From the NCBI RefSeq assembly GCF_004519335.1, contig NZ_SOZD01000002.1, forward strand, positions 1 to 64,000: a stretch of 64,000 nucleotides of DNA. The letters are read 5' to 3'. The notes beneath the pieces were generated by a model. It ran no database searches, was not told the origin of the DNA, and saw nothing but the letters and a program-made list of their open reading frames with translations. The stretch comes from Jiella endophytica. Its GTDB lineage: Bacteria > Pseudomonadota > Alphaproteobacteria > Rhizobiales > Rhizobiaceae. A program made the position numbers and the translations under genes. This document shows positions 24,303 through 51,387 of the stretch, piece after piece (position 1 is the stretch's first letter; every line of letters starts with the position of its first letter).

Positions 24303-24926
24303 CCGTATCGCGATGAGCGGCGCAGCGACCTGAGGCCGCAGACGCCAGGCATTCGCGCATCCGGAAGCGTGTGAGTGCGCGAGAAAACGTCTCTGGCTGA
24401 CGACCGATCCGTGCCGGCCGTCACCGGCGTTGCCGACGCCCCGCAAGGTCGCGGAAATCCTGCCTCCACCTGTTTCCCGCGCTCAGCGCCACAGAGACGA
24501 CGCCGCAGCCTCGCACCGTGGGGGAACGGCGCCGGGCAGCCGCACGCTCCAGCAGATCGACGGAATGCCCTGCTGCTTCAAAAAACTTTCAGCGACCAAT
24601 TTTCAGGCAATCTGGCTAGAATAAGCGCTTTACAGCCGCGTTGAACCGGTTCAATCTGCAGATATGAGCGATATCGCCCGTCCAGCCGGAGCTGCATCCG
24701 ACCGCTGCCAAGGGGTTGCGCCGCCAATCGCCGCGCCGCCTTTCACTGGCGCCGTGGTCGGGTGCAGCACATTCCGGACACCGCGCGAGAGCGTTCCACC
24801 TCATTCGCTCGGCGAGCGAGGGCTGCGGGCCACGGACAGCCGAGGCAGGCGGCGCGCGGCCCCGCGAGCGGTCGCGGCAACGCAACGAAACGACGCCGGC
24901 AGGAGATCGGCGGAACGGAGAGGACG
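24303..24926 (+). other. Long non-coding leader region upstream of the first transport arm
   Basis: About 620 bases contain no supported gene. The notable element is the palindrome at 24641-24654, annotated separately. A TAGAAT hexamer at 24617-24622 is a good -10 candidate but has no clear -35; a TTTACA lies at 24629-24634. If transcription starts near 24630, the GATase1-like gene has a ~300-base 5' leader. I see no known riboswitch in it. The open frames inside it lack ribosome sites and domains. Confidence 0.4.
24641..24654. promoter_or_regulatory. LacI-type operator, copy 1
   Basis: TTGAACCGGTTCAA is a perfect 14-bp palindrome with a central CG, the form bound by LacI/GalR-family dimers whose hinge-helix Leu inserts at the central CpG. 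An identical copy lies at 36091-36104. The only LacI-type DNA-binding domain in the window is the fusion protein at 32721-33932, which is the obvious candidate binder. It lies 19 bases past a TAGAAT hexamer, near a likely transcription start. Confidence 0.75.
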
Positions 24927-25691
24927 ATGACGAAGAAGAACGTGCTTCTGGTCGGCGAAAGCTGGGTCAGCTCGGCGACGCACTACAAGGGCTTCGACCA
25001 GTTCGGCTCGGTCACCTTCCATCTCGGCGCCGAACCGCTGGTCGATGCGCTGAAGGACAGCGACTTCTCCCTCACCTATATGCCGGCTCACGAGGCCGTC
25101 GAGAAATTCCCCTTCGAGCGGGCCGGCCTCGACGCATATGACGCGATCATCCTTTCCGACATCGGCGCGAATTCGCTGCTCTTGCCGCCGGAGGTCTGGC
25201 TGCACAGCCGCACGGTGCCGAACCGCCTCAAGCTGATCCGCGACTGGACGAAGGACGGCGGCGGCCTCCTGATGATCGGCGGCTACTTCTCCTTCCAGGG
25301 CATCGACGGCAAGGCGCGCTGGCGCCGCACCGCTGTCGAGGAAGCGCTGCCGGTGACCTGCCTTCCTTATGACGACCGCGTCGAGATCCCCGAGGGCGCG
25401 GCGCTCGAGATCGGCGCTGCGGAGGGCATTCTCTCCGGCCTCGCAGGCACATGGCCGCCGCTCCTCGGCGTCAACGAGGTGGAGGCCAAGCCCGGCTCGG
25501 ACGTTCTCGTCAGCCTGCCGGAAGAGCATGGCGGCCATCCGCTGCTCGTCACCGGCACCTACGGCAAGGGCCGCAGCGCCGCCTGGACATCCGACATCGG
25601 CCCGCACTGGCTGTCGCCCGCCTTCTGCGAGTGGGAGGGCTATGGCCGGCTCTGGAAGAACCTTCTCGGCTGGCTGACCGAGGCAGCCTAA
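24927..25691 (+). CDS. GATase1-like protein (DUF1355/STM3548 family), probably non-catalytic
   Basis: The 254-residue protein resembles the putative glutamine-amidotransferase-like family (PF07090): VLLVGESWVSSATHYKGFDQF at the start, YDAIILSDIGANSLLLP, GGGLLMIGGYFSFQGIDG and a C-terminal GRSAAWTSDIGPHW. In true class I GATases the nucleophile elbow holds Cys; here the GGYFSFQG stretch has none, so glutaminase activity is unlikely. The role is unknown, but the family often sits beside sugar transport genes. GGAGAGGACG directly before ATG 24927 is a good ribosome site. It is the first gene downstream of operator copy 1. Confidence 0.82.
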   Translation: MTKKNVLLVGESWVSSATHYKGFDQFGSVTFHLGAEPLVDALKDSDFSLTYMPAHEAVEKFPFERAGLDAYDAIILSDIGANSLLLPPEVWLHSRTVPNRLKLIRDWTKDGGGLLMIGGYFSFQGIDGKARWRRTAVEEALPVTCLPYDDRVEIPEGAALEIGAAEGILSGLAGTWPPLLGVNEVEAKPGSDVLVSLPEEHGGHPLLVTGTYGKGRSAAWTSDIGPHWLSPAFCEWEGYGRLWKNLLGWLTEAA

Positions 25692-25723
25692 GCGGCCCGA
25701 CGGACGTGAGCGAAGGAGCGCGA

Positions 25724-26494
25724 ATGACACCGCCGCTGATCGAAGCCAGGCAGATCTCCAAGCGCTTCGGCGCCCTCACGGCGCTGAACGCCGTCGACCT
25801 GACGATCCGCTCGGGCGAGGTCCTGGCGCTCCTCGGCGACAACGGCGCCGGCAAGTCGACCTTCATCAAGGTTCTGTCCGGCGCCCATCCGGCGAGCGAC
25901 GGCGAGATCCTCGTCGATGGCCGGCCGGTGCATTTCGCCTCGCCGCAGGATGCCGCCGAAGCCGGGATCGCGACGATATTTCAGGAGCTCGCACTCTCGG
26001 AGAACCTGTCGATCGCCGAGAACGTCTTTCTCGGCCGCGAGATGACCCGCAACGTCCTCGGCGTGCCGTTTCTCAAACGCCGGGCGATGAAGCGTCAGGT
26101 GACCGGCCTCCTCGACGAGCTCGACGCCCATATTTCCGACCCGGAGGCCCCGGTCGGGAGCCTTTCGGGTGGCCAGCGGCAGGCGGTGGCGATCTGCCGG
26201 GCGCTCAATCTCGACGCCCGGCTGGTGATCATGGACGAGCCGACTGCAGCGCTCGCCGTCGCCGAGACACGCAAGGTGCTGCAGCTCGTGCGCCGCCTCG
26301 CCGACAGCGGCCGCGCCGTCATCCTGATCAGCCACAACATGCATGACGTCTTCGAGGTCGCCGACCGCATCGCCGTCTTCCGCCGCGGACGGAAGATCGC
26401 CGAGCGCGAACGCCGTGCGACCGATCCCGAAGAGATCGTCTCCTTCATCACGGGCGCACATCCGGACGTGCGGGCGCTCGAGATGCAGTCCTGA
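25724..26494 (+). CDS. Sugar ABC importer ATP-binding protein (single nucleotide-binding domain)
   Basis: The 256-residue ATPase has Walker A GDNGAGKST, the Q-loop region IFQELALSENLSIAENVFLG, signature LSGGQRQ, Walker B LVIMDEPTAAL and H-loop ISHNMHDV. The ENVFLGRE block is typical of the CUT2 (RbsA/XylG) branch. Classical RbsA has two fused ATPase domains of about 500 residues; this one has a single domain and must work as a homodimer. GAAGGAG lies upstream of ATG 25724. It belongs to the operon with the binding protein and permeases that follow. Confidence 0.93.
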   Translation: MTPPLIEARQISKRFGALTALNAVDLTIRSGEVLALLGDNGAGKSTFIKVLSGAHPASDGEILVDGRPVHFASPQDAAEAGIATIFQELALSENLSIAENVFLGREMTRNVLGVPFLKRRAMKRQVTGLLDELDAHISDPEAPVGSLSGGQRQAVAICRALNLDARLVIMDEPTAALAVAETRKVLQLVRRLADSGRAVILISHNMHDVFEVADRIAVFRRGRKIAERERRATDPEEIVSFITGAHPDVRALEMQS

Positions 26495-26526
26495 CGCTCC
26501 GCACGCAACAACCGAAAGGCCGTCCC

Positions 26527-27513
26527 ATGCTGAAGACCAGAACGCTCCTTCTCGCTGTCGCGGCGGCCCTTGCCGCCTCGACCACCTTCGCCGCAGCGCA
26601 GGACAAGGCCCGTGTCGCCTTCGTCCCGCAGATCGTCGGGATCCCCTATTTCGACGCCATGCAGCAGGGCGGCGAGCAAGCGGCGAAGAAGCTCGGCGTC
26701 GAATTCGTCTATCAGGGCCCCGTCGACACCAATCCAGTCGACCAGCTGCAGATCGTCCAGAACCTGATCAACCAGGGCGTCGAGGCGATCTCGGTGTCGG
26801 TGCTCGATGCATCCAGCCTCGCCCCCGTCGTCGAGGCGGCGAAGGCGAAGGACATCAAGCTGTTCACCTCCGACAGCGACGCGCCCGATTCCGGCCGCGC
26901 CCTCTATGTCGCCCAGGCCAGCGACCAGGGCCTCGGCTACACGATCATCGACGAGATGGTGAAGCGGGCCGGCGAAGACGCCAAGATCGGCATCGTCTCC
27001 GGCGAGGCGACCGCCTCCAATCTCAACGCCTGGATCGGCTACATGCAGGAGCGGGTGAAGGAGAAGTATCCGAACGTCACCCTGCTCGATCCGCAGTTCG
27101 CCGGCGGCAGCGCCGAGCGCGCCGCCCAGATCGCCGGCGACATGATGGCCTCGAACCCCGACCTGAAGGGCATCATCGCCGTCGCCTCGACCACCTGCCC
27201 GGGCGTTGCCCAGGCGATCGAGACCGCCGGCAAGATCGGCGCCGTCGTCGGTACCGGCTATTGCAGCCCGAACACTGCCCGCGCCTATCTGAAGAGCGGC
27301 GCCTTCGGCTATTCGGTGCTCTGGGACCCGTCGGAACTCGGCTACCTGACCGTCTGGGCCGGCAAGCAGCTGATCGACGGCAAGACGATCCCGGCCGAGA
27401 CGACGCCAGAGGGCATGAGCCATCCGGTCACCTATGACGACAAGACCGGCATCCTCCTGCTCGGCGATCCGGCGGTCTTTACTGCCGACAATGTCGACGA
27501 CTTCAACTTCTGA
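26527..27513 (+). CDS. Periplasmic sugar-binding protein, LsrB/RhaS-like
   Basis: The 328-residue protein begins with a Sec signal (LLLAVAAALAASTTFAAAQ) and has the type I periplasmic-binding fold. VAFVPQIVGIPYFDAMQQGGEQAAKKLG, GPVDTNPVDQLQIVQNLINQGVEAI and a late GTGYCSPNTARAYL align with AI-2-binding LsrB and rhamnose-binding RhaS, which share IPxxVGxxYF and G(F/Y)xxPN blocks. The ligand is likely a small sugar or furanose; AI-2 is possible but unproven. It lies 32 bases after the ATPase and is followed by a strong hairpin. Confidence 0.9.
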   Translation: MLKTRTLLLAVAAALAASTTFAAAQDKARVAFVPQIVGIPYFDAMQQGGEQAAKKLGVEFVYQGPVDTNPVDQLQIVQNLINQGVEAISVSVLDASSLAPVVEAAKAKDIKLFTSDSDAPDSGRALYVAQASDQGLGYTIIDEMVKRAGEDAKIGIVSGEATASNLNAWIGYMQERVKEKYPNVTLLDPQFAGGSAERAAQIAGDMMASNPDLKGIIAVASTTCPGVAQAIETAGKIGAVVGTGYCSPNTARAYLKSGAFGYSVLWDPSELGYLTVWAGKQLIDGKTIPAETTPEGMSHPVTYDDKTGILLLGDPAVFTADNVDDFNF

Positions 27514-27522
27514 CCGGGGTTT

Positions 27523-27548
27523 CCGGAGGGCCGAAACCGGCTCTCCGG
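27523..27548 (+). terminator. Intercistronic hairpin after the binding-protein gene
   Basis: An 11-bp stem is formed by 27523-27533 with 27538-27548 (one G-T pair), starting nine bases after the binding-protein stop. There is no T-run, so it more likely protects the upstream mRNA or partly attenuates expression of the permeases. Similar hairpins follow the other binding-protein genes here. Confidence 0.6.
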
Positions 27549-27703
27549 CTAGGCCGTGCCGGCGACGGCCCGGCGCGGCATGACGGCCAGATGCCGGGCC
27601 GTTCCCCTCTGAACCAAGAGACCGGGACCGGGCGGTGAGCGCTCGGCCCCGCGACGATCGACACCTCGCCGCTTGGCGAAACCAAGGGACCAAAGGCTCC
27701 GTA

Positions 27704-28699
27704 ATGGGCGCGATTGTGCGGCAGATCGGCGAACGCGAGCTCCTGCTCGGTGCGGCATGCATCGTGGCATTGCTGCTGTTCTCGCTCATCTCCCCCTACT
27801 TCCTGACGGCGACGAACATCCTGACGGTCCTGAGGAACTGCAACGAGCTGTTCCTGATCGGACTCGGCATGACGGTCGTGCTCGGCATCGGCGGCATCGA
27901 CGTTTCGGTCGGGGTGGTGATGGGGCTTGCGGCGATCGCCGTCGGGCGGCTGCTTCAGGCCGATGCCGGGCCGCTGCTTTCCGGCCTTGCCGGGCCTCTC
28001 GCCGGCGGCGTCATCGGGCTGGTGACGGCGAGCGTCGTCGTCCTCGGCCGCATCCCCGCCATCGTCGCCACACTCGGCCTCTTCGGCGTCTACCGGGCGG
28101 CGGTGTTCCTGGCGCTCGGCGGCGCCTGGCTGTCCGGCCTGCCGACCGACCTCACCAGTGTCCTCGGCGCCCCGGTCCTCGGCATTCCGGTCGCGCTTCC
28201 CGTCGTCGCGATCGCTTATCTCATCGTCTTCGTGGTGATCCGCCACACACCCTTCGGCCTCCACGTGCTCGCCACCGGCAACTCCGAAGTCAAGGCGCGG
28301 CTCTCCGGCGTCAGCGTCCGGCGGGTGCAGTTCACCGCCTATGTGATCAGCGGCATCTGCTGCGGCCTCGCGGCGAGCTTCTACATCGCCACCTATCGCA
28401 ACGTCGCGATGACCATCGGCGGCACGCTGGCGCTGGAAGCGATCGCCGCCGTCATTCTCGGCGGCACCAGCATCCTCGGCGGCAGGATGAGCCTGCTCGG
28501 CACGGCGCTCGGCGTCCTCCTCCTGCGCATCCTGCAGAACGGGCTGCTGCTGGTCGGCGTCCCCTCGCTCTGGCAGCCGGTGGTGACCGGGCTGCTCCTC
28601 ATCCTCGTTCTCGGCACCGAGGCGGGGCGGGGCCGGTTCGACGCCGCCTCCCTCACCCGCCACCTGCGCCGGCCGGGCCGCCAGGGAGCCGCAGGATGA
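27704..28699 (+). CDS. Sugar ABC importer permease 1
   Basis: The 331-residue CUT2-type permease has eight to ten hydrophobic segments. LIGLGMTVVLGIGGIDVSVGVVMGLAA is the conserved early block, and LALEAIAAVILGGTSILGGRMSLLGTALG is the cytoplasmic coupling block that contacts the ATPase. It should form a heterodimer with the next gene's product. ATG 27704 directly precedes the first conserved segment; an upstream in-frame start at 27635 is not conserved. Its end overlaps the next start by four bases. Confidence 0.92.
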   Translation: MGAIVRQIGERELLLGAACIVALLLFSLISPYFLTATNILTVLRNCNELFLIGLGMTVVLGIGGIDVSVGVVMGLAAIAVGRLLQADAGPLLSGLAGPLAGGVIGLVTASVVVLGRIPAIVATLGLFGVYRAAVFLALGGAWLSGLPTDLTSVLGAPVLGIPVALPVVAIAYLIVFVVIRHTPFGLHVLATGNSEVKARLSGVSVRRVQFTAYVISGICCGLAASFYIATYRNVAMTIGGTLALEAIAAVILGGTSILGGRMSLLGTALGVLLLRILQNGLLLVGVPSLWQPVVTGLLLILVLGTEAGRGRFDAASLTRHLRRPGRQGAAG

Positions 28700-29643
28700 G
28701 CAGCCGCACCTCCCTGACCCTGCCGATCCTTGCCGGGCTCTGGATCCTCATCGTCGCCGGTCTCGCGATCCTGCAGCCGAGCGCCATGGCGCTGTCGACG
28801 GTCACCACCGTCCTGCAGTTCTCCACCCTCCTCGCCCTCGTCTCGCTCGGCCAGGCGATGGTGATCCTCGGCGGCGGCGCCGGCATCGACCTTTCTGTCG
28901 GCGGCACCGTCTCCCTCGTCGCGATCATCGCCATGCTGCTCGACACGGCGGGCGTGCCATCCTTCCTGCTGCCGGTGGTCTGCCTCGTCGCGGGAACGCT
29001 GCTCGGCCTCGTCAACGGCATTCTGGTCACCCGGCTGCGCCTCTTGCCGCTGATCGCCACCCTCGGCACCTTCTACGTCTATTCCGGCACCGCCCTTGCG
29101 ATCACCGGCGGCTCGGCGATCGGCGGCGCGCCGGCCTATCTGCTTCCCTGGGGACGCGGCACGCTCGCCGGCTTCCCGCTGCCGTTCGTGACCCTGGTCC
29201 TGCCGCTGTTCGTCCTGGCGGTCCTGCTCCTGCGCTATACCGCCTGGGGCCGCTGGATCTACGCCTTCGGCTTCAACGAGCGCTCGGCCCGCCTCGTCGG
29301 CATCCCGGTCGACCGCGCCCGCTTCATCGCCTACGGCTTCAGCGGCCTGATGGCGGGCCTTGCCGCCCTTGTCAGCCTCGCCTGGCTCGGCAGCGCACGC
29401 CCGAACATCGGTCAGAACCTCGAACTCACCTCGCTGACCGCCGTCATGCTGGGCGGCGTTGCGATCTTCGGCGGACGCGGCGGCCTCGTCGGTGTGCTCG
29501 CCGCCGTCCTCCTCCTCGTCACCCTGCAAACGGGACTGCTTCAGCTCAACGTCAACACGATCTGGCAGGTCGGCATCATCGGTGCACTCCTGATCCTCGT
29601 GCTCCTCGTCGACAACATCCGCATGATCCGGAGAACCGCATGA
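28696..29643 (+). CDS. Sugar ABC importer permease 2
   Basis: The 315-residue CUT2-type permease is paralogous to the preceding gene: SLGQAMVILGGGAGIDLSVGGTVSLVA and ELTSLTAVMLGGVAIFGGRGGLVGVL mark the same two conserved blocks. Two permease genes with one single-domain ATPase gene imply a heterodimeric channel on a homodimeric motor. The start overlaps the upstream stop (ATGA) and the stop overlaps the M20 gene (ATGA), so all three are translationally coupled. Confidence 0.92.
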   Translation: MSSRTSLTLPILAGLWILIVAGLAILQPSAMALSTVTTVLQFSTLLALVSLGQAMVILGGGAGIDLSVGGTVSLVAIIAMLLDTAGVPSFLLPVVCLVAGTLLGLVNGILVTRLRLLPLIATLGTFYVYSGTALAITGGSAIGGAPAYLLPWGRGTLAGFPLPFVTLVLPLFVLAVLLLRYTAWGRWIYAFGFNERSARLVGIPVDRARFIAYGFSGLMAGLAALVSLAWLGSARPNIGQNLELTSLTAVMLGGVAIFGGRGGLVGVLAAVLLLVTLQTGLLQLNVNTIWQVGIIGALLILVLLVDNIRMIRRTA

Positions 29644-30968
29644 ACCCGACCGAACAGAGGATCTCAGAGGCCGTAGAGGCGGCGTCCGACCGCATCGTCG
29701 AGACGCTCTGCGCCCTCGTCTCCTTTCCCTCGATCGTCAAGAGCGACCCGCGCGAGGCGGGCCCCGGCGAACACGACTGCCAGCATTATCTGAAGGGCCG
29801 CCTCGAAGCGCTCGGATTTGCCACCGACCTCTGGGATCCCGACGGGCCGGCGCTGCTGGAAAAATACCGCGGCCGGCCCGGCGCCCATGAGGGCCGCACC
29901 TTCGAGGGCCGGCCCAATCTCGGCGGCACGCTGAAAGGCAGCGGCGGCGGCCGCTCGATCATGCTGAACGGCCATATCGACGTCGTGCCTCCCGGCTCGC
30001 GCGACCACTGGCGGAGCGACCCGTTCCAGCCGGTCGTCGAGGACGGCTTCGTGCGCGGCCGCGGCACGGTCGACATGAAGGGCGGCGTCGCCTCGATGCT
30101 GATGGCGATCGAGATCCTCAAGGAGATCGGCGTCGATCTCGCCGGCGACGTCGTCTTCACCACCGTCGTCGACGAGGAGATCGGCGGCATGGGTTCGCTG
30201 GCGATGGTCGACCGCGGCTTTACGGCCGATGCCGGCATCATGACCGAGCCGACCGCCAACCGCATCGCGCCGCTCTGCCACGGCATCCTGTGGGGCCGCA
30301 TCATCCTCGACGGCATCGGTGGCCATGCCGAGCTGACGCCGAACAGCTGGGACGGCAGCGGCCCGGTCGATGCGGTGCAGCTGGTGCGGCAGATGCTCGA
30401 CGGCATCGACATCCTCAACCGCCGCTGGACCACCGACCCGCGCAAGAACCATCCGCTGATGGAGCTGCCGAACCAGGTGATCGTCACCCAGATCCAGGCC
30501 GGCGAACATCCGTCCTCCACCGCGGGGCGCGGCGAGATCGTCGTCGACATCCAGTATCTGCCGCATGAGAAGGACGAATTCGGCCTCGGCGGCCATGTGA
30601 AGCGGGAGTTCGAGGCGCATGTCGCGGCGGTCTGCCAGGCCGATCCGTATCTGCGCAAGAAGCCGGCCCGGGTCGAGTGGATTCTCGACGCCGATTGCGC
30701 CGAAGTGCCGGCGGACCATCCCTTTGTCGCCGCCTTCCAGTCTGCCGCGGAAGCGGCAGAGCTCAGCCCGGCCCTGTCGGGCTTCGGCGCCCACAGCGAC
30801 ATCGGTCTGCCGACCAGCCTCGGCGGCACGCCGACGGTGAATTTTGGCCCGGGCGATCCCGCCCAGTCGCATCAGCCGAACGAGCAGGTCTCGATCCGCG
30901 ACCTCGTCGACTGCACCAAGGCGATCGCCCTGGCGATCCACCGCTGGTGCGGGCCTGCGAAGGCTTAA
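29640..30968 (+). CDS. M20 family metallohydrolase (ArgE/DapE/ACY1-type deacylase)
   Basis: The 442-residue di-zinc hydrolase shows LNGHIDVVPPGS with the first His-x-Asp, GRGTVDMKGGVASML with the bridging Asp, VVDEEIGGMGS with the catalytic Glu pair, and a C-terminal QSHQPNE His ligand. A dimerisation insert lies between about residues 205 and 325. It would cleave an amide or acyl bond of an imported N-substituted compound in the cytosol. Coupling to the permease by ATGA ties it to the transported substrate. It ends four bases into the convergent kinase gene. Confidence 0.9.
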   Translation: MNPTEQRISEAVEAASDRIVETLCALVSFPSIVKSDPREAGPGEHDCQHYLKGRLEALGFATDLWDPDGPALLEKYRGRPGAHEGRTFEGRPNLGGTLKGSGGGRSIMLNGHIDVVPPGSRDHWRSDPFQPVVEDGFVRGRGTVDMKGGVASMLMAIEILKEIGVDLAGDVVFTTVVDEEIGGMGSLAMVDRGFTADAGIMTEPTANRIAPLCHGILWGRIILDGIGGHAELTPNSWDGSGPVDAVQLVRQMLDGIDILNRRWTTDPRKNHPLMELPNQVIVTQIQAGEHPSSTAGRGEIVVDIQYLPHEKDEFGLGGHVKREFEAHVAAVCQADPYLRKKPARVEWILDADCAEVPADHPFVAAFQSAAEAAELSPALSGFGAHSDIGLPTSLGGTPTVNFGPGDPAQSHQPNEQVSIRDLVDCTKAIALAIHRWCGPAKA

Positions 30969-31858
30969 GAGGCTCGCTGCGCGAGGATCTCGTCGGCGGT
31001 CGGAAAGGACGGCATCGTGCCGGGCCGCGTCACCGAGAGCGACGCGGCTTTCAGCGCGATGCCGAGCGCCTCGGAAAGTGCGAGCCCCTCCGCCAGCATG
31101 GCGGCGAGCGTCCCGACTGCGACGTCGCCGGCACCGGCCGTATCGACCGGGCTGACCTTCGGCGCGGAGAGGGCGACGAGGCCATCGCCGTTACCAAGCC
31201 AGGCGCCTTCCGCCCCGCGGGTCACCACCACCGTCCGGCAGCCGTGCCCAAGCAGCGCCTGAACCGCCTCGGCCGTCGAAAGGCCGGTGATGTGCCGGGC
31301 TTCCGGCCCATTTGCCACCAGCACGTCGGCGAGCGGCAGCAGCGGCCGCATGTCCCAGGCGATCGGTGCGGTATTGAGGATGACACGGGCGCCGCGGTCG
31401 CGCGCAAAGCTCGCCGCAGCCATCGTCGTCTCCGCCGAGAGATTGCCCTGCAGGACGAGGATGTCGCCCTCTTCCATCGCCGAGAGAGCCGCGAGCGCCT
31501 CGGCCGCGGCCAGACCCGTAGCCGAGGCCGCCGAGGAGACGATCATGTTTTCCCCGTCGGCCGAAACCCAGATCGACGAAATGTCGGTCGGCGCCTCGAG
31601 GACGCGCCATTCGACCGATAGCCCCGCCTCGCCGCAGAGCGCATCCCGCAGGAAGGTGGCGTCGGCATCCTTGCCGATCGGCGCGTTCAGCCGGGTCCTG
31701 GCGCCCGCCCGAGCAGCGGCCACGGCCTGGTTGAGCCCCTTGCCGCCGGCGCATCGCTCGAGCCCGGCGGAGAGCAGCGTCTCGCCCGGCGCGGGCAGCC
31801 GCCCGACCCGCTGGACGACATCGACCGTCGCATTGCCGAGCACATGGACGGTCGTCAT
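30965..31858 (-). CDS. PfkB family carbohydrate kinase (ribokinase-like)
   Basis: The 297-residue kinase has the PfkB signatures: VLGNATVDVVQRVGRLPAPGE near the start, CAGGKGLNQAVAAARAGA, and the C-terminal DTAGAGDVAVGTLAA with the catalytic Asp. It would phosphorylate a sugar or nucleoside brought in by the neighbouring importers. ATG 31858 overlaps the BtpA-like stop (ATGA), which sets the start; upstream in-frame residues are shadows. It is the last gene of the minus-strand arm that also contains a second PfkB domain in the LacI fusion. Confidence 0.9.
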   Translation of the reverse strand: MTTVHVLGNATVDVVQRVGRLPAPGETLLSAGLERCAGGKGLNQAVAAARAGARTRLNAPIGKDADATFLRDALCGEAGLSVEWRVLEAPTDISSIWVSADGENMIVSSAASATGLAAAEALAALSAMEEGDILVLQGNLSAETTMAAASFARDRGARVILNTAPIAWDMRPLLPLADVLVANGPEARHITGLSTAEAVQALLGHGCRTVVVTRGAEGAWLGNGDGLVALSAPKVSPVDTAGAGDVAVGTLAAMLAEGLALSEALGIALKAASLSVTRPGTMPSFPTADEILAQRAS

Positions 31859-32703
31859 CCGCGCAGCTTGCCGACGACGGCCATGAAGGCTTCGACCCGG
31901 CGCGGATCGACCTCGTTCCACCAGGAATCGCCGTGTTTCAGGGAGCTCGCGACGATCACCGCATCGGCGTGTTCGAAGATTGCGCCGACATTGTCCTTGG
32001 TGACGCCGCTGCCGACCAGCACCGGCAGGCTGGTCGACCGGCGGATCGCGGCGAGTTCCTCGGGATCGGCGCTGTTGCCGGTCCGCTGACCGGTGACGAT
32101 CACCGCATCGGCGTCGAAGAACTCGGCGTCGCGGGTCAGCTCCGCCAGCGACCGGTCGGCGACGATGGCATGGGCGCCGTGCTTGACGTGGATGTCGGCG
32201 AAGACCCGGATGTCGTTAGCCCGAAGCCATGCGCGGTAGCGGCTGGCGGCCCCGGCCTTGCCCTCCATGAAGCCTTCATTGGCGACATAGGCGTTGGCCC
32301 ACTGGTTCACCCGGACGAAGTCGGCGCTCGACGCCTTGGCGCTGGCGAGCGCGGTGTCGACGGCATTGGCGAGGACGTTGATCCCGACCGGCACCGAGAC
32401 AGCCTGGCGCACCCGATCGGTCATCACCGCCATGACGGCGGCCGTCTCCGGCCCGAGCTCGTTAGGCTTGGCGAAGGGAATGTCGCCATGGTTCTCGACG
32501 ATCAGCCCGTCGATGCCGCCGTCGACATAGCGCTTCGCCTCGGCGACGGCATGGGCATAGACCGTCTCGATCGGTTCGCCGTCATAGTGCGGCGCGCCGG
32601 GCAAGGGCCTCGCATGGATGACGCCGATCGCGACCTTGCGGCGCTTGAACAGCGCCTCGATCGCATTGGTTTTTTCCCGATAAATGGATGCCGGGTGGGA
32701 CAA
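31855..32703 (-). CDS. BtpA/SgcQ family TIM-barrel protein
   Basis: The 282-residue protein has the family opening VAIGVIHARPLPGAPHYDG, followed by GGIDGLIVENHGDIPF, VPVGINVLANAV, VFADIHVKHGAHAI and VLVGSGVTKDNV, a phosphate-binding-like barrel pattern. BtpA was named for a cyanobacterial photosystem I role, but the wider SgcQ group sits in sugar operons and its reaction is unknown. The start is TTG 32703 with GGGAG eight bases upstream; no ATG is available without losing conserved sequence. It follows the LacI-PfkB gene by 17 bases and overlaps the kinase by four. Confidence 0.86.
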   Translation of the reverse strand: MSHPASIYREKTNAIEALFKRRKVAIGVIHARPLPGAPHYDGEPIETVYAHAVAEAKRYVDGGIDGLIVENHGDIPFAKPNELGPETAAVMAVMTDRVRQAVSVPVGINVLANAVDTALASAKASSADFVRVNQWANAYVANEGFMEGKAGAASRYRAWLRANDIRVFADIHVKHGAHAIVADRSLAELTRDAEFFDADAVIVTGQRTGNSADPEELAAIRRSTSLPVLVGSGVTKDNVGAIFEHADAVIVASSLKHGDSWWNEVDPRRVEAFMAVVGKLRG

Positions 32704-32720: not shown

Positions 32721-33932
32721 TCAGAGGATCTCGATGGAGGTGTCCGCCAGGCCTTCGCCCGGCAGCGCCGCGGCGAGGTCGGCCGCCGTCGGGCGCACCT
32801 CCTGCCCGCCGAAACGCGTGGTCGCGAGGCTGCCGGCCGCGCAGGCGAAGCGCAGCGCCGAGGCGACGTCGACGCCGTTCAGCCAAAGCGCGACGAAGGT
32901 CGCGGCAAGGGCGTCGCCGGCGCCGGTGCGGTCGCACACGGCGACGTCGAGCGCGTCGGCCCGGTGCGCTGTTCCGCCCCGCTCGACGGCAAACGCGCCC
33001 TTGTCGCCGAGGGTGAGGACGACGACGTCCGGCCAGTCCGGTCCGCCGTCCCTCGCCCGGCCGGTCAGCCATGCCTTTGCCGCCTCGGGCTCGGCCGGAC
33101 AGCCCGGCAAGGCCGCAAGGCTCTCGCGGTGCAGGATGACGACGTCGAAGCTGGCGAACAGGCGCTCGGAATTTTCCGCCAGCCAATGCGGCGGCAGGCC
33201 GGTCGCATGCATCGTGAGCCGATAGGAGCGCCGGCGCGCCAATTCGAGGACGCCGACCTGGCGCGGCAGCTGATAGCCCTCGAAATGCAGGCACCAGGGC
33301 ACGCCGTCCGGCTCGTTGGCGATGACGAAACGCTCGACGTCGAAATCGGCAAGGCTTGACGGCTCGTTGACGATGGTACGCGCGCCGTCGCTTTCGACGA
33401 GGACGATCGCGCGGTCGAGGCGACCCTGCCGGCGCTCGCGCTGTGGGACCACCTCGACGTTGCGGGCGGCGAGTTCGGCCACCGCCCAGTCGCTGTCCTG
33501 ATCGGTGCCGAGCACGGTGATCAGGCTGGCGGCGACCGGCCACGGGCCACCGATGCCGCCGGCGACGGCGGCGACATTCGCCGCGATGCCGCCGATCAGC
33601 TTCATGATCTCGATGGCGGTGAAGCGCTCCTCGCGCTCCGGCAGACGCGTCACCGGCGCGATCAGGTCGACGCTGACATAGCCGACCGCGGTCAGCCGCG
33701 GCCAGGCCCGCGGCCGCCGGTCGACCCACTCCGACAGGCGTTTGCGCGAGGTCAGCGAGCGGGCCGTCTCGGCCGGCTCGTAGTCGAGCTGGCGGATCGC
33801 CTCCTCGACCCGCGATCGCAACGCCTCGGAGACCGCGACCCGGCCGTTGAGAACGTTCGAGACGGTCCCCTTGGAGACGTTGGCGGTGCGCGCGACGTCG
33901 GCGATCGTCGGCCGTTGGTTGTCGACACTCAT
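32721..33932 (-). CDS. LacI-type DNA-binding domain fused to a PfkB sugar kinase
   Basis: The 403-residue protein joins two domains. Residues 9-60 are a LacI/GalR helix-turn-helix with hinge: [22 protein letters not shown], then [10 protein letters not shown], where the Leu would enter the operator centre. Residues ~80-400 are a PfkB kinase: [31 protein letters not shown] (114-126) and [13 protein letters not shown] with catalytic Asp340. The periplasmic-binding-like effector domain of normal LacI proteins is replaced by the kinase, so sugar binding or turnover may directly set DNA binding. Its start overlaps the OppF-like stop (ATGA). TTGAACCGGTTCAA palindromes upstream of both neighbouring arms are its probable targets. 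Activity of the kinase is inferred from motifs only. Confidence 0.92.
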
Positions 33933-35005
33933 GTGGCGCGGCTTTCGGCGCGGGCCCGGCGGAGGAGATCGATGCGCAGGCGATAGGCCGGCGACATCCG
34001 CGCCTCCTCGTCGGAGAGGAGCGTCAGCCGGTCGAATTCCTCCGCCCGGATGCAGGCAGCCTGATGGCTACCACGCGAAAAGGTCGAGAGCGGCGGCTGT
34101 TCCGAACGGCAGGCATCGATCGCCGACGGGCAGCGCGAGGCGAAGCGGCAGCCCGGCGCCCTCTCATAGGGACTGGGCGGCTCGCCCGCGATCGCCTGAC
34201 GCTGCCTGGCATCGCCCGGAACCGGGCTCGGCGAGGCGGCGAGCAGCATGCGCGTATAGGGATGGCGGGGATTGCCGAACACCTCTTTCGCCTCTCCGGT
34301 CTCGACGAGTCGCCCAGCATAGAGCACCCCGACATGGGTCGCGACATGCCGGATGACGGCCATGTCATGGGAGATGAACAGATAGGAGACGCCGAGCCTG
34401 TCGCGCAGATCGGCGAGGAGGTTGATCACCTGCGCCTGGATCGAGAGATCGAGCGCCGAGACCGCCTCGTCGCAGACGATCAGTTCCGGCTCGACGGCGA
34501 GCGCCCGGGCGATGGCGATCCGCTGGCGCTGCCCACCGGAAAATTCGTGCGGAAAGCGGTCGGCCTGGTGGGCGCCGAGGCCGACGAGTTCGAGCAGCTC
34601 GACCACCCTGTCGCGGACGTCCCGCCGAGGGCGCAGCCGGTGCAGCCGGATCGGCGCGGCGATCGCTTCGCCGACCTTGACCCGCGGATCGAGCGAGGCG
34701 AACGGATCCTGGAAGATGATCTGCATCCGCTGGCGCAGGCGCCGCATCTCGGCATCGCTCTTCTCCCCGATCTCCTCGCCGTCGAGAAGCAGGCTACCGC
34801 CGTTCGCCTCGACGAGGCGGAGGACGAGCCGGCCGATCGTCGTCTTGCCGGAGCCGCTCTCGCCGACCAGCCCGAAGGTCGCGCCTTTTTCGATGACGAA
34901 GGAGACGTCGTCGACGACATGCGCCGCCCGCTCGCGGCCGAAGAGGCCGCCGCCGGTGCGATAGGTCTTGGTCAGGTTACGGACTTCGAGGAGCGGCGCA
35001 GTCAT
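33929..35005 (-). CDS. Oligopeptide/dipeptide ABC importer ATP-binding protein (OppF/DppF-like)
   Basis: The 358-residue ATPase has Walker [10 protein letters not shown], the [12 protein letters not shown]-loop block, signature FSGGQRQR, Walker [13 protein letters not shown], the H-loop FISHDM and the C-terminal oligopeptide/dipeptide domain with Cys-rich [14 protein letters not shown]. Walker B has DEAVSALD rather than the usual DEPVSALD. It pairs with the preceding OppD-like ATPase; both stop-start junctions overlap by four bases. It drives the permeases encoded divergently at 36126-37915. Confidence 0.92.
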
Positions 35006-36009
35006 GCGGGGAGCGCTTTCGCGACCGCTTCCTCGAGGGGCGCCCGCCAGCAGGCGACGTCGTGGCCGGGCTCCGCCGGAAGCAGCGGCGGATAGGCCTC
35101 ACGGCAGCAGTCGACGGCGAACGGGCAGCGCGGCGCGAAGCGGCAGCCCTCCGGCATGTCGCCAGGCGAAGGGACCTGACCGTCGATCGATGCGAGCTGC
35201 CGGCCGAAGTCGTTCGCCCGCGGCATCGCGGCAAACAGCGACAGCGTGTAGGGATGCTGCGGGTCGGAGAAGATGGCGTCGCGACTTCCCCGCTCGACGA
35301 CCCGGCCGGCATACATCACCGCGATCTCGTCGGCGATTTCCGCGACGACGGCGAGGCTGTGGGTGATGAACAGCACCGCCGTGCCGAGCTCGCTCCGCAA
35401 CTCGTCGATCAGCGCCAGGATCTGGCTCTCGATGGTCACGTCCAGCGCCGTCGTCGGTTCGTCGGCGATCAAAAGCGCCGGCCGGCAGACGAGCGCGATC
35501 GCGATCATCACCCGCTGGCGCATGCCGCCGGAGAGCTGGTGCGGATAGGCGTCCATCCGCTGGTCCGCCGCCGGGATATGCACCCGCTTGAGCATTTCGA
35601 GCGCCGCCTCGCGGGCCTCGGCCCGAGACAGCGTGCGATGCTGGCGCAGCGCCTCGACGATCTGCTCGCCGACGGTCATCACCGGGTTGAGCGAGGTCAT
35701 CGGTTCCTGGAAAACCATGGCGAGGCGGTCGCCGCGCAGCGCCGCCATCCGCTCCTCGGACAGAGCGAGAATGTCGGTTGCCTGGAACTGCAGGCGTTTC
35801 GCCGTCAGCCGGGCGTTCGGCGGCAGCAGCTTCATCAGCGACAGGGCGGTCAGGCTCTTGCCCGAACCGGACTCGCCGACGAGGCAGAGAATCTTCCCGG
35901 GAGCCAGCGAAAGATCGACGCCGTCGACGATGTCAGGCCCGTCGCCGAAGCCGACCCTCAGACCGGAAATCCGCAGCAACTCCGGGTCGTCGCGGGTCTC
36001 GGAAGTCAT
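35002..36009 (-). CDS. Oligopeptide/dipeptide ABC importer ATP-binding protein (OppD/DppD-like)
   Basis: The 335-residue ATPase contains Walker [27 protein letters not shown], signature LSGGMRQR, Walker [14 protein letters not shown]-loop ITHSLAVV and the C-terminal [14 protein letters not shown] motif. ATG 36009 is preferred over the adjacent ATG 36012 because GGAG lies five rather than two bases away. It is the first gene of the minus-strand arm OppD-OppF-LacI/PfkB-BtpA-kinase and is divergent from the permease gene across the operator region. Confidence 0.92.
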
Positions 36010-36052
36010 CATCTCTCCGTCCGCCTCCGCGAAACTGCCTCCGAAAAAGGCA

Positions 36053-36082
36053 TTGACACATCGCTGTGCATCCAGTGATTAT
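36053..36082 (+). promoter_or_regulatory. Predicted sigma70-type promoter of the Dpp permease arm
   Basis: A perfect TTGACA (-35, 36053-36058) is followed after 18 bases by GATTAT (36077-36082), which matches four of six -10 positions. Transcription would begin near 36089, just before operator copy 2. A repressor bound there would block initiation or early elongation. Confidence 0.65.
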
Positions 36083-36104: not shown

Positions 36105-36125
36105 GAGAAAATGGAGCAGGCGCCT

Positions 36126-37066
<941 letters not shown>

Positions 37067-37070
<4 letters not shown>

Positions 37071-37915
37071 GCGCCGTCGCTGCCCCGGGAGCCGCCCTCG
37101 CACGCGGGCTGGTCCGCGATCGCCGCGCCGCCTTCGGCTGCGCCCTCGTCGTCGTCGCCTGTCTCGCCGCAATCGCGGCGCCGCTGCTCGCCCCCTACGA
37201 TCCGAACGCGCCGGACTTCGTCGCGGCGCTCTCGCCGCCGTCCTCGGCGCATCTCTTCGGCACCGACGACCTCGGGCGCGACACCTTCTCCCGGGTCATC
37301 TACGGCGCGCGGGTCTCGCTGCTCGTCGGGCTGGTCAGCGTCGTCGGCGCGCTCGTCGTCGGCACGGGACTCGGCGTCGTCGCGGGCTATTTCGGCCGCT
37401 TCGCCGATGCGCTGATCATGCGGGTGATGGACGTCGTCTTCGCCTTTCCGAGCATCCTCCTCGCCCTTGCCATCACCGCCGTCCTCGGGCCGAGCCTTTC
37501 CAACGCCATCCTCGCCATCGCCGTCGTCAACCTGCCGGTCTTCGCGCGCATCGCCCGGGCCCAGACACTGGTGGTCCAGAGGCTCGACTTCGTCGAGGCG
37601 CAAAGGGCGCTCGGCTTCGGCCCCTTCGCCATTCTCGCCAAGACGATCGTGCCGAACATCCTCGCGCCGATCATCGTCCAGGGCTCGCTGCTCTTTGCCG
37701 CGGCGATCATCACCGAATCCTACCTCTCCTTCCTCGGCCTCGGCGCCCAGCCGCCGACGCCGACCTGGGGCAACATGCTGCGCAACGCCATCGGCTTTCT
37801 CGGCCTCGCGCCCTGGCTCGCCTGGTTTCCCGGTGCCGCGATCTTCCTGACGGTGCTCGGCTTCAATCTCTTCGGCGATGCCCTGAGGGACATCTTCGAC
37901 CCCCGCAACACCTGA
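37067..37915 (+). CDS. Dipeptide/oligopeptide ABC importer permease (DppC-like)
   Basis: The 282-residue protein has the DppC layout: a short cytosolic N-terminus, HLFGTDDLGRDTFSRVIYGAR in the loop after the first membrane segment, the coupling block DFVEAQRALGFGPFAILAKTIVPN, and a C-terminal LFGDALRDIFDPRNT. It forms the channel with the preceding DppB-like protein and is powered by the divergently encoded ATPases. The start overlaps the upstream stop (ATGA). Confidence 0.93.
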
Positions 37916-37944: not shown

Positions 37945-39453
37945 ATGTTGAGAAGAACGCTTCTGAAAAGTCTCGCCGCGAGCGCCGCCCTGCCCCTCGT
38001 CCTGCGGCACGGCACGGCCTTCGCGGCGGCCCCGGACGTCCTCGACGTCGCGATCGTCTCCGACCCGGTCACCCTCGATCCGGCGCTGATGGCCTCGTTC
38101 TTCGAGCTCTCGGTGCAGTACAATCTTCATGAGCCGCTGCTGCACGTCACGCCGGACCTTGCGATCGAGCCGGGCCTTGCCGAACTGTCGGCGCCCGACG
38201 ACACCACCTATGTCCTGACGCTCAAGGACGGCCTGACTTTCCACGACGGGACGGCCATCGACGCCGAAGCGGTCAAGGCGAATTTCGACCGCATGCTCGA
38301 TCCGGCCACAGGGTCGCCGCGGCGGAGCGAACTCGGCCCGATCGCGAGCGTCGAGGCCAGCGGACCGCTCGAGGTCACCATCAAGCTCTCGGCGCCCTAC
38401 GCGCCCTTCGCCGGCGTCCTCGCCAACCGCGCCGGCATGATGGTCTCGCCGAAGGCGGTGGCGGATCTCGGCGCCGACTTCGCCACCAAGGCGGTCGGCT
38501 CGGGTCCCTACAAGCTGGTCAGCTGGAACAAGAACTCCGAACTCGTGCTGGAGGCCTTCGACGGTTACTGGCGCGGCAAGCCGGCGATCGGCCGCGTCGT
38601 CTTCCATCCGATTTCGGACGAGACCGTGCGGATGACCAACCTGCGCTCCGGCACCGTGCAGCTGGCCGACGGCGTCGCACCGCAGCTCGTCTCGCAGGTC
38701 GAGCAGGCGAGCGACCTGACGATGAAGCAGCGCCCAGGCCTCGGCTTCAACGCCTTTTCCTTCAACAACACCCGGGCGCCCTTCGACAAGGCCGCCGTCC
38801 GGCAGGCCTTCGTCACCGCCGTCGGGCCTCAGGTCATCCAGCGCGCGGTCTATTTCGGCACCGGATCGGTCTCCAACGGCCCGGTCCCGCCGTCGATCGC
38901 CTGGGCCTATGACGAGACGCTCGATCCCGCCCGCGGCGACGCCGAAAAGGCGAAGTCGATCCTCTCGGAGGCCGGCATCTCCGATCCGGTCGAGGTGTCG
39001 GTGACGGTCACCAATTCGCCGCTGCAGGTGAGGACGGCGGAGATCATCCAGGCGCAGGCAGGACAGGCCGGCTTCAAGGTCTCGATCAACCAGATCGATC
39101 CGACCAGCCTGATCACGGTGCTGCGCCAGAAGGACTTCGATCTCTGCATGTCACCCTGGTCCGGCCGGTCCGACCCGGACGGCAACATGTTCAACTACTT
39201 CACCAAGGACGGGCCGAACAACTTCGCCGGCTACCAGAGCGATGCGGTCGACGGCCTCCTGAAGAAGGCCCGCACGACGCTCGACCAGGACGAGCGGGCG
39301 ACGCTCTACAAGCAGGCGCAGGAGACCATCGCCGAGGACGCGCCGATGCTCTTCCTCACCTTCCCGTCGACCCTGCAGGCATCCGTGGCGAAGCTCGACT
39401 GGATGCAATGGCCGGACGGGGCGCTGCGCCTGCAGTTCGCCAAGTTCAGCTGA
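37945..39453 (+). CDS. Dipeptide/oligopeptide-binding protein (SBP_bac_5 family)
   Basis: The 502-residue protein starts with a signal sequence (LKSLAASAALPLVLRHGTAFAAA) and has the extended type II binding-protein fold of DppA/GsiB/OppA. LKDGLTFHDGTAIDAEAVKANFDRML, VGSGPYKLVSWNKNSELVLEAFDGYW and FSFNNTRAPFDKAAVRQAF are family blocks. It would capture a peptide-like or conjugated solute for the DppBC permeases. It lies 29 bases after the permease and is followed by a hairpin. Confidence 0.92.
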   Translation: MLRRTLLKSLAASAALPLVLRHGTAFAAAPDVLDVAIVSDPVTLDPALMASFFELSVQYNLHEPLLHVTPDLAIEPGLAELSAPDDTTYVLTLKDGLTFHDGTAIDAEAVKANFDRMLDPATGSPRRSELGPIASVEASGPLEVTIKLSAPYAPFAGVLANRAGMMVSPKAVADLGADFATKAVGSGPYKLVSWNKNSELVLEAFDGYWRGKPAIGRVVFHPISDETVRMTNLRSGTVQLADGVAPQLVSQVEQASDLTMKQRPGLGFNAFSFNNTRAPFDKAAVRQAFVTAVGPQVIQRAVYFGTGSVSNGPVPPSIAWAYDETLDPARGDAEKAKSILSEAGISDPVEVSVTVTNSPLQVRTAEIIQAQAGQAGFKVSINQIDPTSLITVLRQKDFDLCMSPWSGRSDPDGNMFNYFTKDGPNNFAGYQSDAVDGLLKKARTTLDQDERATLYKQAQETIAEDAPMLFLTFPSTLQASVAKLDWMQWPDGALRLQFAKFS

Positions 39454-42444: not shown

Positions 42445-43524
42445 ATGGCCCTCGAATTTCATTCGCCCGCCGCGAAGGGCGGCGGCATCGGCGTCGGCTC
42501 CGGACAGGTGATGACCGTGCTCGGCCCGATCCCCGTCGCCGAGATGGGCGTGACGCTGATGCACGAGCACATTCTCATCGACGGAGCCAAGTCCTGGAGA
42601 TGCCCCTGCCATCCGGACCGCAAGGCGATCGCCGAGCAGCCGGTGTCGATCGAGATCATCGGCGAATTGCGGATGGACCCGTATATGAACCGGGACAACG
42701 TCTCGCTGACCGACAGCGACCTGGCGCTGTCCGAGCTGAAGATGTTTCAGGCGCTCGGCGGCCACACCGTCGTCGATCCGACCAATATCGGCATCGGCCG
42801 CGATCCGGTGAAGCTCGCCCGGATCGCCCGCATGAGCGGGCTGAAGATCGTCATGGGCTCGGGCTTCTACCTCGAATTCTCCCATCCCGAATGGCTGGAG
42901 GCGATGGATGTCGAGGAGGTGACGGAGCTGCTGGTCAAGGATGTCGGCGGCGGCGAGGAGAAGCCGGAGATCGCCGCCGGCATCCTCGGCGAGATCGGCG
43001 TCTCGAAGGATTTCACCGAAGCGGAGAAGAAGTCCCTGAGGGCCGCGGCGCGCGCCTCCGCCAGGACCGGCGTGCCGCTGTCGATCCATCTTCCGGGCTG
43101 GGAGCGCCTTGCCCATCGTGTGCTCGACCTCGTCGAGGAGGAAGGCGCCGACCTCTCCCACACCGTTCTCTGCCACATGAACCCCAGCCACGCGGACCTG
43201 CCCTACCAGACCAGCCTTGCCCGGCGCGGCGCCTTTCTCGAATACGACATGATCGGCATGGATTTCTATTATGCCGACCAGGACGCCCAGTCGCCGTCGG
43301 ACGAGGAGAATGCGAGGGCGATCCGCACGCTGGTCGATGCCGGCTTTGCCGATCGCGTGCTGCTGTCCCAGGACGTGTTCCTGAAGATCATGCTGACGCG
43401 CTTCGGCGGCTTCGGCTACGCCCACATCCTTCGCCATTTCGTCCCGCGGCTGAAGCGCCATGGTGTCGACGAGGCCACCATCGAGACGATGATGATCGAC
43501 AATCCCCGCGCCGTCTTCGCCTGA
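42445..43524 (+). CDS. Phosphotriesterase-family metallohydrolase
   Basis: The 359-residue amidohydrolase-superfamily protein has the full binuclear metal set: HxH in MHEHILID (His40, His42), LGEIG with Glu183 in the position that bridges the metals in PHP-type members (Lys in true phosphotriesterases), LSIHLPG (His215), VLCHMNPSH (His244) and LLSQD (Asp310). Members act on lactones, phosphorylated sugar lactones or esters. The position one base after a sugar permease points to a sugar-lactone or ester substrate delivered by that importer. Confidence 0.9.
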   Translation: MALEFHSPAAKGGGIGVGSGQVMTVLGPIPVAEMGVTLMHEHILIDGAKSWRCPCHPDRKAIAEQPVSIEIIGELRMDPYMNRDNVSLTDSDLALSELKMFQALGGHTVVDPTNIGIGRDPVKLARIARMSGLKIVMGSGFYLEFSHPEWLEAMDVEEVTELLVKDVGGGEEKPEIAAGILGEIGVSKDFTEAEKKSLRAAARASARTGVPLSIHLPGWERLAHRVLDLVEEEGADLSHTVLCHMNPSHADLPYQTSLARRGAFLEYDMIGMDFYYADQDAQSPSDEENARAIRTLVDAGFADRVLLSQDVFLKIMLTRFGGFGYAHILRHFVPRLKRHGVDEATIETMMIDNPRAVFA

Positions 43525-43600
43525 GACCGGGCCCTGCGCATCCATTGGGCGTCCCGTCGGACAGATGGCGCGCCGAGACGTTCACTCCAACCCAACCGTC

Positions 43601-43631
43601 CGCCTGATCGCCCTCTCCGAGAGGGCAGGCG
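43601..43631 (+). terminator. Two-part hairpin upstream of the gamma-glutamyltransferase
   Basis: GCCCTCT (43610-43616) pairs with AGAGGGC (43620-43626) across CCG, extended by CGCCT (43601-43605) with AGGCG (43627-43631). No T-run follows. The structure ends seven bases before GAGGAGG, the ribosome site of the next gene, and may end the upstream operon or affect translation. Confidence 0.5.
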
Positions 43632-43650
43632 TTGAGACGAGGAGGTCCCG

Positions 43651-45246: not shown

Positions 45247-45296
45247 GGCGCGGGGACGGCGACAGGCTCCGTCGCTCGGACCGGCCACGCCTCAAT
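45242..45296. terminator. Inverted repeat spanning two convergent stop codons
   Basis: ATTGAGGCG (45242-45250) and CGCCTCAAT (45288-45296) form a 9-bp stem that includes the stop codons of both the gamma-glutamyltransferase and the OppF-like gene. It has no T-run in either direction but is well placed as a bidirectional terminator. Confidence 0.5.
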
Positions 45297-47321: not shown

Positions 47322-47323
47322 CG

Positions 47324-48295
<972 letters not shown>

Positions 48296-48306
48296 CTGAC
48301 GTCCTT

Positions 48307-49350: not shown

Positions 49351-49485
49351 GGTGACGGGATCCTGTCTCATGGTGCCGTACCGGGCTCGGGGCGAACCAC
49401 ACCCGCCACGGCAAAGATTGCAAAGCCCTGCGGGCGACCCTCTACCCGCACGATCGGCAGGAGGGGCTTGCCGCTTCGGGCCGGT

Positions 49486-49512
49486 CTCGCGGGACGGCAG
49501 GCGTCCCGCGAG
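49486..49512 (-). terminator. Perfect 11-bp intercistronic hairpin between binding-protein and permease genes
   Basis: CTCGCGGGACG (49486-49496) pairs perfectly with CGTCCCGCGAG (49502-49512) across a 5-base loop. No T-run follows in either direction. It lies in the 260-base gap between the binding-protein stop and the OppC-like start, where it would stabilise the binding-protein mRNA or reduce read-through into the membrane genes. Confidence 0.6.
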
Positions 49513-49610
49513 GGCTGCTCAGCCAATGGAGCTTTGGTCTCGACATTGGATGCGGAGCCCACATCGATCGGGACTCAAATGTCGAATGCGCTCCACTCCA
49601 CTTGATCGTC

Positions 49611-51305: not shown

Positions 51306-51387
51306 GCTTGCCGTTCCTGTTGGTGGGGTTTCGAAGTGGCGGGCGCGGCGGCGATCGACGCCACACCCGTGGTTTCGGGCGCGGCGT

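Follow-up and report, generated by a model that had tools for sequence, protein, structure and literature searches.

The window, i.e. the whole stretch of 64,000 nucleotides of Jiella endophytica DNA analysed here, contains at 32721-33932 a single open frame which lies on the minus strand (the strand was absent from the earlier note), codes for 403 amino acids without an inner stop and unites an enzyme domain and a DNA-binding domain in one protein. The LacI-type helix-turn-helix (HTH) reached 58.5 bits against a Pfam cut-off of 27 (PF00356) and the PfkB domain 110.7 bits against 25.8 (PF00294), and these were the only two domains matched at E <= 0.01, with neither a periplasmic-binding-like domain nor a ROK domain found in the fusion by this search. 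The HTH is followed by an ARxL motif (A57/R58/L60), which, from LacI and PurR, we take to be the hinge motif. The earlier note had described one frame joining a LacI HTH to a full PfkB kinase, the motifs GGIAANVA and DRTGAGD, the lack of a periplasmic-binding domain, a separate PfkB kinase nearby and two palindromes. All of this holds: the coordinates of the frame are right, with Pfam placing the domains at residues 9-53 and 80-382, both motifs are present in the kinase domain as described, the separate kinase is real and so are both palindromes, which are perfect (Table 1).

Table 1. Genes, domains and DNA sites at the fusion locus; positions are those of the window, except in the last line.
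Feature	Position	Strand	Basis or remark
Operator 2, TTGAACCGGTTCAA	24641..24654	.	Precedes the GATase/ABC/ArgE set by 269 nt
GATase1_like protein, downstream of operator 2	24924..25691	+	PF07090, E 5.1e-121
Ribose-type ABC transporter: ATPase, binding protein, two permeases	25721..29643	+	Pfam
ArgE/DapE-like M20 deacylase	29640..30968	+	PF01546, E 1.9e-37
Separate ribokinase-like PfkB kinase	30965..31858	-	PF00294, E 5.8e-46
BtpA/SgcQ family protein, TTG start chosen	31855..32703	-	PF03437, E 2.6e-72; TIGR00259 over cut-off
LacI-HTH/PfkB-kinase fusion, 403 aa	32721..33932	-	Open frame; Pfam; 17 further full-length fusions
PfkB/ribokinase-type kinase domain, residues 80-382	32787..33695	-	PF00294, E 1.1e-31; predicted fold
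DRTGAGD, anion hole and catalytic Asp, residues 334-340	32913..32933	-	D334, T336, G337, A338, G339, D340 invariant in 18/18
GGIAANVA, sugar-side PfkB motif, residues 114-121	33570..33593	-	G114, G115, N119 invariant in 18/18
LacI-type helix-turn-helix, residues 9-53	33774..33908	-	PF00356, E 5.5e-16; whole-genome HTH scan
OppF/DppF-like ABC ATPase	33929..35005	-	NCBIfam, below cut-off
OppD-like ABC ATPase, first gene of the fusion's presumed operon	35002..36012	-	NCBIfam OppD best match, below cut-off
Promoter-like site TTGACA-18-GATTAT	36053..36082	+	Consensus scan, 10/12 matches
Operator 1, TTGAACCGGTTCAA	36091..36104	.	Perfect palindrome in the divergent gap oppD (-)/oppB (+)
OppB-like permease, ATG chosen by eye, first + gene after operator 1	36111..37070	+	NCBIfam
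OppC-like permease	37067..37915	+	NCBIfam
OppA-like solute-binding protein	37945..39453	+	NCBIfam
Roseivivax marinus plasmid fusion, HTH present, hinge lost	L019:8998-10188		No perfect operator in the plasmid record

On the minus strand the genes follow in the order OppD-like, OppF-like, fusion, BtpA/SgcQ and PfkB, and the end of the OppF-like gene overlaps the fusion start by 4 nt. Divergent from OppD run OppB, OppC and OppA, a second ribose-type transporter, a PTE-family protein and a gamma-glutamyltransferase. The OppB-like permease is 77-79% identical to its Bosea neighbours and the ArgE/DapE-like deacylase 77-81% identical to homologues in eight other fusion loci. The PTE-family protein and the gamma-glutamyltransferase are situated at 42445-45246, downstream of the opp/ABC genes. 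Each of the loci L019, L020 and L074 also has a homologue of at least one of the two, a hint that the substrate could be a gamma-glutamyl, lactone or amide-linked sugar compound. BtpA offered no clue to the substrate, with a single weak match (E 0.0021) among solved structures. Judged by eye, a second peptide-type ABC transporter set occupies 45292-51476 on the minus strand, and a 530-aa frame resembling an animal-type haem peroxidase lies at 21830-23422.

Each of the two gene sets of the window (GATase/ABC/ArgE and BtpA-PfkB/opp) is preceded by one of the two perfect copies of TTGAACCGGTTCAA, so that candidate operators, recognised from sequence only, adjoin linked transport and catabolic genes. 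When the window was scanned with up to three mismatches, six matches were found, two of them perfect, against a mean of 1.09 and a largest value of 5 in shuffled sequence. These two are also the only perfect copies in the 5.25-Mb genome and the only ones there with no mismatch or one; allowing two mismatches gives eight sites (six of them with two mismatches), the reversed control giving four. The promoter-like site matches the consensus at 10 of 12 positions (mean of shuffles 0.0) and operator 1 starts 9 nt downstream of its end; near operator 2 no promoter-like site was found. The same 14 bases are present in both Bosea loci, in the gap from which oppB and the fusion gene diverge. In Bosea sp. 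CRIB-10 a second perfect TTGAACCGGTTCAA (L007:2127-2140) lies 5.7 kb away from the one at the fusion, with another PfkB kinase gene on one side and, on the other, a divergent amidase-like gene, whose name and start were judged by eye. Second copies of the palindrome were also seen in genome G383 (L028:1501-1514), upstream of what by eye is an apparently ordinary LacI-type regulator gene with the recognition stretch SQGTASN, and in the Bosea BK604 genome (G812, L026:1501-1514), far from the fusion and between genes that by eye are sulfatase-like and for a sugar-binding protein. Going by the second copies in G383 and Bosea BK604, other LacI regulators can also use this palindrome.

In total, 18 full-length fusions were compared: that of the window, two from Bosea, two from Rhizobium, one from Roseivivax and 12 from other genomes, the 17 others being 36-57% identical to the window protein, and both domains exceeded the Pfam cut-offs in all five of these 17 that were scanned. 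A search of contigs, whose reach was close relatives only, returned four kinase-only matches besides two fusions from Bosea (57 and 56% identity). Among plasmid records, those of Rhizobium sp. WYJ-E13, R. etli 8C-3 and Roseivivax marinus carry full-length fusions and those of Rhizobium T1473 and T1470 cut copies. Full-length matches were found in 1 of 61 genomes of near relatives and 1 of 385 genomes of the class (in both cases the own genome), in 11 of 394 of the family, 4 of 397 of the order and, in two samples of the phylum, 2 of 299 and 2 of 339, the second sample recovering only two fusions already known. These counts come from overlapping samples and from searches with differing profiles and limits, of which the alignment-based ones score only the best few candidates per genome. 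Genomes that matched only from model position 46 onward, i.e. without the HTH, were excluded from the count (52 of 63 in the family search and 28 of 30 in the phylum search). The fusion gene is patchily distributed, because none of nine congeners among the near relatives has a match at E <= 1e-20; the one genome of Actinomycetota searched with the fusion profile also contained no fusion. In the tree all 18 fusion kinase domains fall on one side of a branch with support of 99/99, present in 100% of 200 bootstrap trees; the outsiders were 44 kinase domains without a LacI head, for which the program flagged long branches. This fits one fusion event in the sample without proving it, and as far as the proteins can be read, a sugar kinase has taken the place of the LacI sensor domain on at least one occasion. 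The Rhizobium sp. T1473 plasmid carries a cut fusion (L020:6932-7576; T1470 has the same cut match) in which homology to R. etli stops after about 156 residues. The palindrome upstream of it, TTGGAGCGCTTCAA, differs by one base from that of R. etli, and a LacI regulator with a ligand domain is encoded at L020:4506-5507. This cut copy is possibly a natural loss experiment.

The active site of the kinase is retained throughout. D89, G114, G115, N119, D334, T336 and the GAGD loop at 337-340 are invariant in all 18 fusions, so that within DRTGAGD residues D334, T336, G337, A338, G339 and D340 are kept everywhere and the catalytic Asp, the GAGD loop and the sugar-site Asp and Asn are unchanged, these roles being ones which we assign from ribokinase; E218 is Glu in 17 of 18 and Asp in Roseivivax. 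A structure model of the fusion (the run with 11 sequences was used, and a three-sequence run with pLDDT 56.1 was set aside) had a mean pLDDT of 84.6, with residues 55-70 of low confidence. Foldseek matched the predicted fold to sulfofructose kinase YihV, ribokinase and ketohexokinase, with 7ag6_B as the best match (E 2.0e-20, TM-score by target 0.85) and TM-scores by target of 0.74-0.85 among the best 20 matches listed; in the model, the kinase domain thus has a ribokinase fold. The best-matching stretch never spans HTH and kinase together in any of the sequences of solved structures listed, the best 60 of 75. Neither resource gives the substrate: the fusion lies below the curated cut-off of every NCBIfam family listed (25 of 35), with ribokinase (79.8 bits, cut-off 299.65), IolC and others all far below, and the Foldseek matches are a mixture of sulfofructose kinase, ribokinase and ketohexokinase. 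Because of these sub-threshold and mixed matches no sugar is named for the fusion.

Within the recognition stretch of the HTH, SKGTVSN in the window, S20, G22, T23, S25 and N26 are invariant in all 18 fusions, and the hinge residues R58 and L60 are kept in 17, the exception being Roseivivax, in which A57, R58 and L60 are replaced by V, P and D. Across the 18 fusions conservation is 0.74 for the HTH and 0.67 for the kinase, but only 0.31 for the linker. In all eight close pairs dN/dS of the kinase is 0.01-0.21, and in the six of eight in which it could be computed for the HTH it is 0-0.21; in the linker it rises to 1.54, in one pair with 8 codons only. Both halves of the fusion, together with the operator, look to be under selection. 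A coupling between HTH and kinase is not visible in these data, because the linker is modelled with low confidence and poorly conserved, with dN/dS up to 1.54. In the own genome, which is 97% complete, five LacI-type HTHs were found, and that of the fusion is the sole one within the window.

The association of palindrome and fusion gene extends across the sample. The pattern TTGAANCGNTTCAA, an even palindrome with a central CG situated at fusion genes and their operons, was fixed from the window and the first loci before nine further loci were fetched, and is present in 17 of the 18 fusion loci. Each of the nine later loci has exactly one copy in 18-19.5 kb, near the fusion start, and the 10 records of the first loci have it 0-2 times each, 8 of 10 containing it and the Roseivivax plasmid and the T1473 plasmid with the cut fusion lacking it. 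Measured to the codon of HTH residue 9, the end of the pattern lies 29-34 nt upstream in 14 of 18 loci and 152 nt upstream in both Bosea loci. The chance expectation per 400 nt is 5.6e-6 to 4.6e-5, and as background 38 sites were counted in 29 of 100 genomes of other relatives. The Roseivivax locus, in which the hinge is also lost, has only a site with three mismatches, TCGAGCCGGTTCGA, which precedes opp at a distance of 7 kb from the fusion. With this distribution the fusion HTH very probably binds these palindromes. Residue 21 of the HTH is Lys in the window and in both Bosea fusions, where the five sites read TTGAACC in both halves, and Val, Ile or Leu in the other 15; at the 14 sites of fusions without Lys, with 28 half-sites in all, the corresponding half-site position is G 19 times, C five times and A four times. 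This is suggestive of residue 21 tracking the operator base, and no more than suggestive because the fusions with Lys form one group in the tree, so that the covariation counts as one event.

Gene content around the fusions falls into related arrangements. GATase, ABC and ArgE genes lie downstream of the fusion in L017, L018, L023 and L073-L076, and ABC and ArgE genes in L021, so that homologues of the ribose-type ABC transporter follow the fusion in all of these loci; in R. etli 8C-3 the GATase1_like homologue comes directly after it. In L022 and L077-L081, ABC genes and another PfkB are downstream. The Bosea loci have the fusion followed by BtpA-PfkB, with divergent oppBC, the Roseivivax locus (L019) contains BtpA, PfkB, gamma-glutamyltransferase and opp genes, and L074 has an additional BtpA-PfkB pair; BtpA/SgcQ and a PfkB kinase occur together in the window, L006, L007, L019, L020 and L074. 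The presence of two operators in the window would be explained by its joining of both gene sets. Another PfkB frame was found in 11 of the 18 loci, the window included, and was absent from the 18.5-19.9 kb stretches covered in the other seven (L017, L018, L021, L023, L073, L075 and L076). The earlier note had argued that the separate PfkB kinase frees the fused copy for regulation, and with 11 loci having such a kinase and seven lacking it, this was rejected as a general rule. In these seven loci the fusion may itself be the kinase of the pathway, and the fused kinase probably phosphorylates the sugar too, above all in loci without a second PfkB.

The near-universal operator beside the fusion genes is our strongest evidence, and it leads us to think that sensing of the nutrient, and with it the induction of its own genes, probably falls to the enzyme itself. 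The most likely reading of the sequences is a trigger enzyme, in which a repressor-kinase regulates itself and its kinase domain is the sensor for the sugar of the pathway. The proposal of the earlier note that the kinase domain acts in place of the usual sugar-binding domain is strongly supported by the palindromes in 17 of 18 loci, the active site kept in all 18 and the low dN/dS values, and has to do without its argument from the separate PfkB. DNA targeting by the fusion is well supported by the recurring sites, while sensing, catalysis and repression would follow a scheme such as this one. Two chains would pair via their kinase domains and so put both HTH heads on the palindrome, and binding at operator 1 would block transcription because this palindrome is just downstream of the promoter-like site. 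Incoming sugar, with or without ATP, would close the lid of the kinase cleft, the closure would disturb the geometry of HTH and hinge, and release from DNA would turn on the uptake genes (Opp and the ribose-type ABC transporter), the breakdown genes (BtpA, PfkB, GATase1_like and the ArgE-type deacylase) and the fusion gene as well. The dependence of DNA binding on substrate, ATP or turnover, as proposed in the earlier note, is at this stage a prediction. It should be noted that the position of a site alone cannot separate repression from activation. A bolder version, which we put forward tentatively and hold to be possible rather than likely, is a LacI-type repressor that reads the catalytic state and not mere ligand, with sugar plus ATP in the kinase cleft, or turnover to sugar phosphate there, setting the affinity for the operator. 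If this were true, the switch would report flux and energy charge jointly, and the protein induced would also feed the pathway.

Several other explanations could account for parts of these results. The kinase domain could be a pure ligand sensor which, by binding sugar and perhaps ATP, controls the HTH without turnover and leaves the chemistry to the separate PfkB. ROK repressors and yeast Gal3 are precedents for such sensors, and the other PfkB frame in 11 of 18 loci, the window among them, agrees with it. However, D340, the GAGD loop and T336 are invariant in all 18 fusions, though a pure sensor could lose them, and seven loci have no other PfkB in the stretches covered, so that we consider this unlikely. 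Alternatively, the protein could be an ordinary catabolic kinase which uses its HTH only for feedback repression of its own operon at high protein level, with no ligand signal passing between the domains. The site 29-34 nt before HTH codon 9 in 14 loci is an autoregulatory position and the poorly conserved linker points the same way, but catabolic clusters normally need an inducer, operator 2 precedes transport and catabolic genes and not the fusion gene, and the second site of Bosea CRIB-10 lies between the amidase-like gene and another PfkB gene (starts by eye); such a kinase is, in our opinion, quite improbable.

It is also conceivable that a different LacI-type regulator serves the palindromes and that the fused HTH is idle, as could be read from the palindrome upstream of the LacI-like gene in G383 and from the low rate of the pattern in genomes at large (29 of 100). 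Against this stand the site in 17 of 18 loci, its near-fixed distance to the fusion in 14, the strong constraint on the HTH seen in dN/dS and the absence of any further LacI HTH within the window, which together make it very unlikely. That two genes were joined by an assembly error or a frameshift has practically no probability left: no point in favour of such an artefact was found, it is strongly disfavoured by the presence of the fused frame in 17 other loci (36-57% identity), and with the fusion kinase domains forming a single group in the tree it was ruled out.

Going by titles and the opening of abstracts, we found no paper on a LacI-PfkB fusion in a literature search made mostly without subscription journals, and earlier notice is possible. 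Present annotation conceals the architecture, the R. etli and Roseivivax fusions being called “PfkB family carbohydrate kinase”. With one protein and two perfect 14-bp operators genome-wide, the system is small and well bounded, and it would allow a direct test of an enzyme's catalytic cycle wired to a repressor head.

Among known systems, the ROK-family repressors (NagC, Mlc, XylR) also link a kinase-like domain to an HTH and control sugar genes, but the ROK kinase fold differs from the PfkB fold and the fusion has, by Pfam, PfkB and LacI domains only. With the PfkB/ribokinase family (ribokinase, YihV, ketohexokinase) it shares the full domain, the GG..AN and DxTGAGD motifs and the predicted fold, and differs from it in the added N-terminal LacI HTH. 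It resembles trigger enzymes, as defined and listed for E. coli (PutA, NadR, BirA, PepA, PyrH; PMC8249747), in being an enzyme that also bears DNA-binding regulation. It differs from them in using another enzyme and another HTH, and its bifunctionality is a prediction. LacI-family factors are the textbook sugar switches, made of an HTH and a periplasmic-binding-like domain. The fusion is similar to them (RbsR, GntR, CcpA, PurR, LacI) in its N-terminal HTH with hinge motif, in the even palindrome with central CG and in the local control, here predicted, of sugar uptake and breakdown genes; even palindromes are reported for 1251 of 1303 LacI-family factors, with a central CG in the consensus of 1173 of these (PMC4052901). 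Where these proteins have the periplasmic-binding-like ligand domain, the fusion has a PfkB kinase, and because this ligand domain is absent it is not a full member of the LacI family, with a head and an operator that are nevertheless of LacI type.
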